From Pedobacter cryoconitis (GTDB taxonomy: Bacteria; Bacteroidota; Bacteroidia; Sphingobacteriales; Sphingobacteriaceae), in contig NZ_CP014504.1 of assembly GCF_001590605.1 (NCBI RefSeq), positions 4,464,001 through 4,528,000 of the forward strand: a stretch of DNA of 64,000 nucleotides, written 5' to 3'. Position numbers and translations under genes: made by a program. The notes under the pieces are model-generated. The model saw nothing but the letters and a program-made list of their open reading frames with translations. It did not search any database and was not told where the DNA came from. Below are positions 6,947-10,013 of this stretch, piece after piece (position 1 is the first letter of the stretch; each line of letters starts with the position of its first letter).

Positions 6947-8068
6947 CTATAAAGACGGAACAGGTCTTATACCGATAATGTGACTGGCATAATTCAACAT
7001 AAAAGAATTTTCTAAAAAGAAGTTAATCCCTATAATAGACACCGATTTACTCTTGCGTGAATCGAGTGTCGTTTTATAATTGCTATTGTTAGCAGCATAA
7101 TCATAAATAGTACCCTCATCACTCACAAACCGGATAACGATACCAGCATTCATTCTTCCTTTTTTAGCTGCATCCGGCTCATAAATCACCCCTCCTGCAG
7201 GATTCCCAGAATCAAATAAAACATAAGACGGTGAAATCACCAAACCATTATAACTGATAATTCCCCTTACATAAGGATAAAAGCGGCCATTCTGCAATAG
7301 CTGCCGATGCAATACAAATCCTTCCTTTGCCTGTTCGGTTATGCCCACCGTCAATAAAGGCACTGCTGATTTCCCTTCCATAGAAGAAACCCCTTCCCAT
7401 TTTACCTGATCAAGCGGCGCAAGGATAAACCCAGCCTCCACACGGTTGCCAAAACTCAAATAATTAAAAGGGCTAACTACATTCTCCCTTTTCATGACCA
7501 GTCCCGCTTTAAGCTCTCCACCAGAATTCACGCCAGCAATCCCATCACAATGCTGGTCTACCTGAGCAGGCTTCCCAGTCTGGTCATAAACACCATGATA
7601 AACTAAAATAAAAGGCATTCTCTTCGTTCTCACCTGGCCCATCTTATCCCCGATCACAATCGAAGCATAAGCGATATTCCCATCATACGAACGCGTACCA
7701 CCATAACGCGACTTCGTTTTATTCCGCGTCACAGTGATCCCATCCAACACTAAAGAATCCTTGTCCCCAATTACAATTCCAGTGTCTGCCACCAATGAAG
7801 CCGGCAGTAATCGCTTAGCATCCAGAATAAGCCCCTGAGAGCCCGTATCAAATACTACTCTAAGCTTTACCTTAGCTGCCCCAATATATCGGATAGGAAG
7901 ATATAACCTTCTTCCAAGCGTTTTCATATTTTGTCCCGGCATTAAATTAATCCTCACCGGACTAACAATACTTGCCACAGAATCCATAGGGTCAGAAATC
8001 CCAAAAGCCATAGACTCCACAGTAAAAAAACACAAAACAACAATAACACCGAATAATCTGTTCATCAC
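6947..8068 (-). CDS. Predicted exported pepsin-like aspartic protease
   Basis: 373 residues with a signal peptide (1-21). Two aspartic-protease signatures are present: VVFDTGSQGL around Asp74 and VLFDSGNPAG around Asp286, each followed by hydrophobic strands. The spacing of 212 residues fits a two-lobed A1-type (pepsin) enzyme rather than a single-lobed retropepsin. Other parts also fit: a GG-Y-G strand region at 123-130, CDGIAG at 174-179 (compare DGILG in pepsins) and a C-terminal IIGINFF...IIGI segment like the pepsin C-lobe end. Likely exported. Coding-strand composition becomes strongly skewed toward its start, next to E2. Confidence 0.7.
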   Translation of the reverse strand: MMNRLFGVIVVLCFFTVESMAFGISDPMDSVASIVSPVRINLMPGQNMKTLGRRLYLPIRYIGAAKVKLRVVFDTGSQGLILDAKRLLPASLVADTGIVIGDKDSLVLDGITVTRNKTKSRYGGTRSYDGNIAYASIVIGDKMGQVRTKRMPFILVYHGVYDQTGKPAQVDQHCDGIAGVNSGGELKAGLVMKRENVVSPFNYLSFGNRVEAGFILAPLDQVKWEGVSSMEGKSAVPLLTVGITEQAKEGFVLHRQLLQNGRFYPYVRGIISYNGLVISPSYVLFDSGNPAGGVIYEPDAAKKGRMNAGIVIRFVSDEGTIYDYAANNSNYKTTLDSRKSKSVSIIGINFFLENSFMLNYASHIIGIRPVPSL

Positions 8069-8209: not shown

Positions 8210-8256
8210 TTATACTATTTAGCTTACACCCTGTCATGGTGGAAAAAAACTGTGAA

Positions 8257-8347
8257 ATTAAAAAAACACCCTGTAGTGTATTACTGGCATTAGGATCCTC
8301 GAAGAGGGAACGCGCGCCAGTAATACACTACAGGGTGTTTTTTTAAT
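8257..8347. repeat. Hairpin element E2: 31-bp perfect palindrome with conserved tip
   Basis: Arms at 8257-8287 and 8317-8347 pair perfectly over 31 bp around a 29-nt tip (8288-8316). The tip has CATTAGGAT, then a mini-hairpin CCTC-GAA-GAGG, then GAACGCGCG. It matches the reverse complement of the E1 tip at 28 of 29 positions, while the arms share nothing beyond the A/T-tract foot (CACCC preceded by A7; mirror GGGTGTTTTTTT). It sits 28 bases after the end of nadE on that gene's strand, so it could act as its terminator. Confidence 0.9.
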
Positions 8348-8375: not shown

Positions 8376-10013
8376 TTAAGCTAAATACTTCCCAACAATT
8401 GGCATTCTCCTCCCACTCCCAAAAGCCTTTGGAGAAACCCTTAAAATAGGCGGAGTCTGATACCTTTTAAACTCCGCCCCATTCACCATTTTAATAATCC
8501 TTCTCACTAACCCCTCCTCATAACCCATCGCAATAATATCCTTAGAACTCTTCTTCAACTCAATAAACTGAAAAAGGATCGTATCCAGCGTATCATAATC
8601 AGGCAGCGAATCAGAATCCTTCTGGCCCGGTCTTAACTCCGCTGAAGGCGGCTTAACAATCGTATTCACGGGAATAACGACCTCATCCTTATTTATATAT
8701 GCTGCCAGCTCATAAATCTGAGTCTTATAAACATCACCAATCACCCCAATCGCACCACACATATCGCCATACAAAGTACCATACCCTACTGCACACTCAC
8801 TCTTATTTGAAGTATTCAGTAAAATATAACCAAACTTATTAGACATTGCCATCACCACAATTCCCCTGCTTCTCGCCTGAATGTTCTCTTCCGTCAAATT
8901 AAAAGGCAAACCCTTAAAAGCACCTGCCATCATACTATCAAAAGCATCCGCAGCTTCCGCAATAGAAATAACCTCGTGCATACACCCAAAATTCTCCACT
9001 AAATCCAGTGCGTCTTTAATAGAATGATCCGAAGAATACTTGCTCGGCATCAAGACCGCCATTACATTCTCCGCACCCAGTGCCCGGCAAGCCAACGCAC
9101 ATACAATCGCAGAATCAATCCCACCAGACAAACCTAATACCGCTTTAGAAAACCCGGACTTCACAAAATAATCCTTGATCCCTAACACCAATGCATCATG
9201 AATCTGAGCGATATCAGACATCGGCTGATGCACAAAAACATCACCCTCAATCTTTCCATCAGCAAAAGTATAGGTCTTCAGCTGCTCCTTGAAATAATCC
9301 ATTTCATCCAGCATATTCCCATCCTGATCAAAGACCATAGAACCACCATCAAAAATGATTTCCGTCTGTGCGCCAACCTGGTTTACATACAACAAAGGCA
9401 AATTATATTTCTTCGCATTATCTGCTAATACAACCCTGCGCTCATCATCATGCTGATAAGAAAACGGAGAAGCGGCAATATTAATCATCACATCTGGATT
9501 CTCTTTAATCAGTTCATCCATCGGATTAGAAACATATAATGGATTATTATTAATATTCCAAAGATCCTCACAAATCGTCAATGCAATTTTAACTCCTTTA
9601 AAATCAATACACTCAAAAGAAGTAGCAGGCTCAAAATAACGATACTCATCAAAAACATCATAATTAGGCAACAACGCCTTCCGCGCAATAGATTTAATCT
9701 GTTTTTCTTCTATAAAATAAGCCGCATTGTACAAATCTTTACCCGCTGCCTGTTCATTTCTGACCGGCAACCCGACAATACAGGCAATCCCCGTACAATG
9801 TTCAGCAATCTCTTTTCCCGCTTCTTCACAAAGAGAAATAAACTCTTCGAACTCCAGGAAATCACGCGGAGGATAACCACAAACGGCAAGTTCTGCGAAT
9901 ACAACCAGGTCAGCCCCATCAGCTTTAGCCAACTGGATATGCGCTATTATTTTTTTTATGTTCAGCTCAAAATTACCAATATGGTAATTCAGCTGCGCTA
10001 ATGCTATCTTCAT
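8376..10013 (-). CDS. nadE: Glutamine-dependent NAD+ synthase
   Basis: 545 residues: an N-terminal nitrilase-type glutaminase domain (1-270; triad Glu41, Lys112, Cys148) and a C-terminal synthetase domain with the ATP pyrophosphatase loop LGLSGGIDSAIV. The glutaminase releases ammonia for amidation of deamido-NAD+. The gene starts 6 bases after the stop of the upstream outer-membrane protein gene, so the two are probably cotranscribed. The 3' end has unusual strand composition: plus-strand bases 8461-8520 hold 24 C and 1 G. Confidence 0.97.
   Translation of the reverse strand: MKIALAQLNYHIGNFELNIKKIIAHIQLAKADGADLVVFAELAVCGYPPRDFLEFEEFISLCEEAGKEIAEHCTGIACIVGLPVRNEQAAGKDLYNAAYFIEEKQIKSIARKALLPNYDVFDEYRYFEPATSFECIDFKGVKIALTICEDLWNINNNPLYVSNPMDELIKENPDVMINIAASPFSYQHDDERRVVLADNAKKYNLPLLYVNQVGAQTEIIFDGGSMVFDQDGNMLDEMDYFKEQLKTYTFADGKIEGDVFVHQPMSDIAQIHDALVLGIKDYFVKSGFSKAVLGLSGGIDSAIVCALACRALGAENVMAVLMPSKYSSDHSIKDALDLVENFGCMHEVISIAEAADAFDSMMAGAFKGLPFNLTEENIQARSRGIVVMAMSNKFGYILLNTSNKSECAVGYGTLYGDMCGAIGVIGDVYKTQIYELAAYINKDEVVIPVNTIVKPPSAELRPGQKDSDSLPDYDTLDTILFQFIELKKSSKDIIAMGYEEGLVRRIIKMVNGAEFKRYQTPPILRVSPKAFGSGRRMPIVGKYLA

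Follow-up and report, generated by a model that had tools for sequence, protein, structure and literature searches.

Long terminator-like hairpins with variable paired stems and a conserved, oriented tip in part of the genus Pedobacter

Element E2 and its locus

The window analysed here (64,000 nucleotides of Pedobacter cryoconitis contig NZ_CP014504.1, positions 4,464,001 to 4,528,000) encodes on its minus strand a NAD synthetase of 545 aa (8376-10013) and, next downstream on the same strand, a protein of 373 aa (6947-8068). Hairpin element E2 (8257-8347) is located between them, 28 nt from the stop codon of the former gene; the latter lies 188 nt past it. E2 is a perfect 32-bp inverted repeat enclosing a tip, and an inverted-repeat search of the window returned arms of 32 nt at 8257-8288 and 8316-8347, with 27 nt between. 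As read from the sequence, a left A-rich foot (8257-8266) and a right T-rich foot (8338-8347) frame a left stem arm that differs between copies (8267-8286) and a right stem arm (8318-8337), which in turn enclose a 31-nt tip (8287-8317), the outermost two bases of which pair too at each side. Within the tip, a mini-hairpin of 4 bp with a 3-nt loop is found (8297-8307). The tip is the part of E2 to which a strand is assigned; its sense strand is the same as for the NAD synthetase gene, namely minus. RNA folding of E2 gave z = -13.1 against 200 shuffles; the sense strand folds at -57.9 kcal/mol into a stable hairpin with a T-run directly after it, as expected of an intrinsic terminator. The sequence ACACCCTGT from the E2 stem (8266-8274) is repeated at 8226-8234, 40 nt outside and in the same orientation, which may be chance.

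A sister element, E1 (87-177), has arms of 30 nt (87-116 and 148-177) with 31 nt between (tip, 117-147), and the two elements are the longest perfect inverted repeats in the window's repeat listing. A whole-genome BLAST with E2 recovered the E1 tip (E = 5.7e-8) and a third copy, E3 (E = 1.6e-5), in the same genome (G000:85789-85859). The 31-nt tip register is identical in four copies: E1, E2, E3 and one in genome G022. The preliminary description of E2 as a hairpin with a conserved tip was thus correct, as was its figure of 30 bp for the E1 stem; the 31 bp given for E2 becomes 32 bp as measured. The outer feet that it reported are present, but in the family they are an A-run and a T-run, not TG followed by a T-run. 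Of the 31 tip positions, 29 are identical in E1 and E2. Their stems, held to be unrelated, are indeed unlike each other (similarity 0.47), but each has a more similar stem at the orthologous locus of another species (0.64-0.67) and an inner consensus emerges over many copies, so that the stem homology named in advance as an argument against the family does exist in part.

Distribution of the family

Model R1, built from the above four copies, had matches with E values up to 1 in 14 of the 145 genomes of the genus, which disposes of the possibility that the tips match only here; some of the weak matches are probably chance, e.g., a group of three in G010 at a spacing of 45 nt. Model R2, built from 26 diverse copies, matched E2 at 8267-8337 (80.2 bits) and E1 at 97-167 on the minus strand (76.3 bits) and, with a cutoff of E = 0.01, recognised at least 14 of 16 chosen genomes. 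Among 399 genomes sampled across the taxonomic family, at least nine had R2 matches, a lower bound in view of the stricter filters and the 12 candidates scored per listed genome; all matches listed belong to one of 25 genera, Pedobacter. As far as searched, the elements are confined to a part of this genus.

The working set came from a model-independent hairpin finder run on the fetched stretches. Hairpins with loops below 20 nt were removed, with three exceptions retained by hand, and six elements that the finder had missed or trimmed were added by hand; three of the four elements failing the A-rich-foot filter were restored. The final set comprises 138 distinct elements, drawn from 14 genomes. 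Searching by pattern or by model favours copies in which the tip is conserved and the stem is paired.

No match at the gathering score was obtained in an Rfam 15 search of the window. In eight element loci, ten Rfam matches at E up to 5 were all below the gathering scores (the best, MIR171_2, at 34.2 bits versus 65); most are miRNA-like and snoRNA models, which long hairpins attract. A Pedobacter motif, Pedo-repair (RF01715), figures in a passage of PMC2864571, and it gave no match in the window or the eight loci. We did not find the family described in the titles and abstract starts of the open-access literature. A viral, plasmid or phage origin appears unsupported: the exact class-A tip pattern occurred in none of the viral contigs, and plasmids and phages had no match to E2 with 30-nt flanks at E 0.01.

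Pairing and conservation of stem, feet and tip

Family stems measure about 20-32 bp and are mostly perfect. In the 26-sequence alignment, the structure of which was drawn from the same sequences and therefore favours pairing, 95.8% of the stem cells hold standard pairs (87.5% for the whole structure), and 213 two-sided changes were counted against a shuffled mean of 60.3, a number reached in none of 500 shuffles; that of further pair types was reached in 4 of 500, and two-sided changes amounted to 35-65 when the partner was slid. Outer-stem cells of the 138 elements are Watson-Crick in 2970 of 3030 cases (24 G.T, 24 A.C and 12 other) and 95 elements have a mismatch-free outer stem, values biased upwards by a hairpin finder that penalises mismatches. 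Near the tip, the inner stem follows a consensus of about TGCTRTATTTCTGGC. The tip itself contains an asymmetric internal loop and the mini-hairpin, the columns of which are just 64.2% paired over the diverse tips of the alignment.

A second tip type, TGCATTAATTYGCKNCGCRAAAGAACG, has 15, 23 and 10 copies in G018, G065 and G122, respectively, and none in G120 and G106; its reversed control pattern had no match in any of these five genomes. Over the 48 copies, tip positions carry 1.2-2.0 bits (one exception, 0.6), values inflated by the tip-based search; orthologues among the 48 do not count as independent. Counted from the tip, positions 10-20 of the stem have 0.1-0.6 bits and are 81-96% Watson-Crick; the innermost nine carry 0.5-2.0 bits in the left arm at 69-98% pairing, and foot positions about 0.8-1.8 bits. 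These copies, the 26-sequence alignment and the 14 of 145 genomes bear out the three-part family that had been proposed, i.e., a foot, a stem that varies but pairs, and a conserved tip containing a mini-hairpin. ‘Foot, variable paired stem, fixed tip’ sums the elements up fairly, provided that the inner stem consensus is added; wholly free stem variation, as originally suggested, does not hold, since this weak consensus exists and stems are related at orthologous loci.

The alternative suggestion of mobile tips entering palindromes was not borne out. Both tips found by pattern in G000 sit on stems, as do those of the second type: 47 of these 48 have ungapped pairing along 15 or more positions, and the remaining one pairs only in a shifted register recognised by eye. 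The patterns searched revealed neither a mobile tip nor one lacking a stem.

Gene context

The elements are typically found behind genes: of the 138, 72 lie between convergent and 55 between tandem genes, three between divergent ones, four at a locus edge and four inside called ORFs, counts that rest on crude ORF calls. The nearest upstream stop codon is at a median distance of 22 nt (up to 40 nt in 97 of 127). Being placed behind genes and almost never between divergent ones, as terminators are, they agree with the terminator role considered from the start.

The region 3' of the NAD synthetase gene was inspected in 30 of the 142 genomes having this gene. Family-type hairpins were present there in seven, with stems related to that of E2 (G000) in G132, G022 and G072 and unlike it in G023, G106 and G109. 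None was found at this place in the close relatives G013 and G049, nor in G006. In G013 and G049 the missing stretch exceeds the hairpin, so that the absence looks like a loss and not like an empty insertion site. A common regulon was considered and rejected: 20 upstream proteins were scanned, 17 of them with a Pfam family, and no common theme was seen.

Orientation of the tip

R2 discriminates between both tip orientations, and 112 of 114 listed places were entered. In the 87 copies for which the two orientations differed by 5 bits or more in score and a suitable stop codon lay no farther than 100 nt away, the tip has the same orientation relative to the gene in 80 and the opposite one in seven. 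Counted per orthologous locus group, the ratio is 32 to 4, with one tie. The second tip type (n = 48) has 34 sense and 13 antisense copies and one undecided, and its T-tract is richer on the sense side in 32 versus 8 cases. E2 obeys the rule. E1 was left out of the count since the nearer of its genes falls beyond the window; the orthologous elements L037 and L057 obey the rule. E3 violates it: the protein that it adjoins is an orthologue 96% identical to that of P. cryoconitis, and its tip (L055 2996-3076) is opposite to that of the orthologous element (L039 3001-3071), perhaps through tip inversion. A fixed orientation argues against random entry of tips into palindromes.

Stem mismatches have no strand preference (18 G.U and 16 A.C on the sense strand of the 87 copies; 23 and 17 in the second type), and a sense-RNA role for the stem by itself is thus not indicated. 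The stem stays paired on both strands, whereas the tip is oriented. This strand specificity suggests that the tip probably acts in the mRNA 3' end. In its sense apical region, GAA occurs in 60 of the 87 copies and TTC in nine.

Evolution of stems and tips

Changes at the same locus in different species were followed in 55 orthologous pairs from four close genomes (three others were skipped for low identity; loci were reused across pairs). Out of 1516 pair cells, 1436 were unchanged, 45 had changed in both arms to another Watson-Crick pair, 33 in one arm and two otherwise, and the compensatory stem changes anticipated in the preliminary description were thereby found. The two-arm changes comprise 24 transitions and 21 transversions; paired transversions cannot go via G.U intermediates. 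That nearly half are transversions suggests maintenance by template switching, strong selection being a possible alternative. The idea that stems evolve faster than tips was dismissed for close relatives, in which the divergence per site is about equal (stem 4.2%, tip 3.7%). Stems of distant orthologues resemble each other slightly more than random pairs do (0.555 versus 0.508, s.d. 0.008).

Between species, the tips of E1 and E2 have changed jointly. In six sequences (both elements and their orthologues in G132 and G022), five tip columns distinguish the genomes at both loci and none distinguishes the loci; the corresponding quartets have a tip likeness of 0.95 within genomes and 0.77-0.78 between them, which falls short of the strict threshold. 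Concerted evolution of all tips was rejected as a rule: over 241 quartets of distant orthologues, mean tip likeness was 0.604 between orthologues versus 0.559 within genomes (145 versus 91 quartets), and at the strict threshold two quartets were concerted and 12 vertical. Over all loci, tips are thus mostly inherited vertically, and joint change is restricted to some tip types.

Proposed function and alternatives

On balance, we favour the view that the NAD synthetase gene has in E2 a long 3'-terminal intrinsic terminator that could work from both sides, and that E2 is a member of a family present in part of Pedobacter. Termination is deduced from position and anatomy: like intrinsic (Rho-independent) terminators, including bidirectional ones between convergent genes, the elements form a hairpin followed by a T-run on either strand just 3' of stop codons, almost never between divergent genes; unlike them, they combine a mostly perfect stem of ~20-32 bp with a conserved 31-nt tip that has a mini-hairpin and a fixed orientation. 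The feet would supply a U-tract on either strand. The stem would mainly have to pair, so that its sequence could drift, a mutation in one arm being reverted or copied to the other, probably by template switching in replication with the tip hairpin as the fold-back point. C-GNA-G DNA triloops (GAA in E2, GCA in E1, on one strand) are presumably extra-stable and could act as a fold-back primer. According to passages in PMC8794818, hairpins are made and mended by template switching, which stable loops are likely to prime. Our elements share with them perfect stems, simultaneous paired changes and a conserved loop, but the hairpins treated there belong to rRNA and microRNA genes and not to a multi-locus terminator family. 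The tip, conserved within tip types and fixed in orientation, would most likely act in the sense RNA, as a folding nucleus of the terminator and/or as the site of an RNA-binding factor.

A bolder extension, which we consider conceivable but doubtful, is that the tip is an oriented 3'-end label of mRNA, read by an RNA-binding partner with lineage-shifted specificity. Tips of unrelated terminators would follow this partner as a species dialect, and stems would drift as self-correcting palindromes.

A similarly modest chance is given to the simpler idea that these are ordinary strong terminators sharing ancestry, the tip being a good folding loop oriented by loop preferences of the RNA strand, with no special factor involved. 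The prevalence of GAA over TTC in the sense apical region would fit, as would the lack of a common function among the upstream proteins scanned and the similar loop of an ordinary terminator at 26-55 of the window. However, the conserved part of ~31 nt exceeds a loop and includes an internal loop, the stems are very long, and the joint change of five tip columns at two loci would go unaccounted for.

Less probable is a DNA-level element, i.e., a cruciform or single-stranded hairpin bound by a nucleoid, gyrase-like or recombination protein and harmlessly placed behind genes. Stem pairing kept equally on both strands and the stable mini-hairpin of the tip would suit it, but a tip orientation that tracks transcription would be needless for a purely DNA-level site.

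Still more improbable is a non-autonomous mobile element of REP/BIME-like or MITE-like kind that spread near gene ends and whose stems diverged later. Tens of copies of one tip per genome, inverted copy pairs 130-250 bp apart, as in some repeat families, and tip types found at different loci in different genomes recall such elements, and REP/BIME and other stem-loop families, as far as PMC2267715 outlines them, are likewise short, extragenic, palindromic, near gene ends, lineage-specific and sometimes in inverted pairs. There, however, the whole repeat is conserved; here the outer and middle stem sequences vary from copy to copy (0.1-0.6 bits per position) and do not provide the shared terminal inverted repeats of MITEs or IS ends. 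The Y1 transposase of REP/RAYT systems (PF01797) was absent from six of six genomes tested (G065 and G122 are outside these six), in a search that as a control detects 5 of 14 known genomes, and the larger gap at the E2 locus of G013 and G049 is no clean empty site. An integron attC site, which would go with an integrase and have conserved R boxes at its ends, is unlikely given the scattered chromosomal places.

A DNA uptake signal housed in terminators, as in Neisseria and Pasteurellaceae, is very improbable: lineage-specific sequences recur in terminator hairpins and are enriched between convergent genes there as well, but in the systems sketched in PMC1852404 the arms are the conserved signal and copies number about 1,000 or more, whereas here the arms vary, the tip is conserved and oriented relative to the gene, and there are tens of copies at most per genome (two in G000, 10-23 in three others). 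Of the features that define mobile elements and uptake signals, the family shows few.

A single element of 90 nt unites three constraints, with feet held by composition, the stem mainly by pairing and the tip by sequence and strand. Since a palindrome should readily allow its tip to invert, the preserved orientation speaks for selection acting on the RNA. Dozens of loci would be usable for measuring template-switch repair of bacterial palindromes, and if the tip has a partner, this would be a new way to mark mRNA 3' ends in Bacteroidota.

Clusters and neighbouring repeats

One locus of G109 (L185 1996-2490) has a cluster of three hairpins, spread over no more than 500 bp, in which the same tip is set on stems that all differ. 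Second-type copies of G018, G065 and G122 often form inverted pairs ~130-250 bp apart (L194, L196, L204, L208, L212, L216 and L218; L195 in reverse order), each hairpin sitting behind its own convergent gene. Six loci (L194, L196, L202, L207, L211 and L216) share sequence outside the stems, approximately CTKCGCTGAAAAA to the left and AGATGATCCTGTAGCATGATGG to the right, which may represent a second repeat of intergenic regions. A different type of long and perfect palindrome, with a 31-bp stem, a loop of 3-5 nt and a G-rich arm, is found near some elements (L112 1247-1313, L113 3723-3789, L170 2333-2399, L041 3240-3304 and L152 2383-2447). A further palindrome consists of GTTTGATACGGG-like repeats with a loop of 13-15 nt (L052 3419-3501, L115 2381-2469, L053 3283-3371 and L045 2476-2548).
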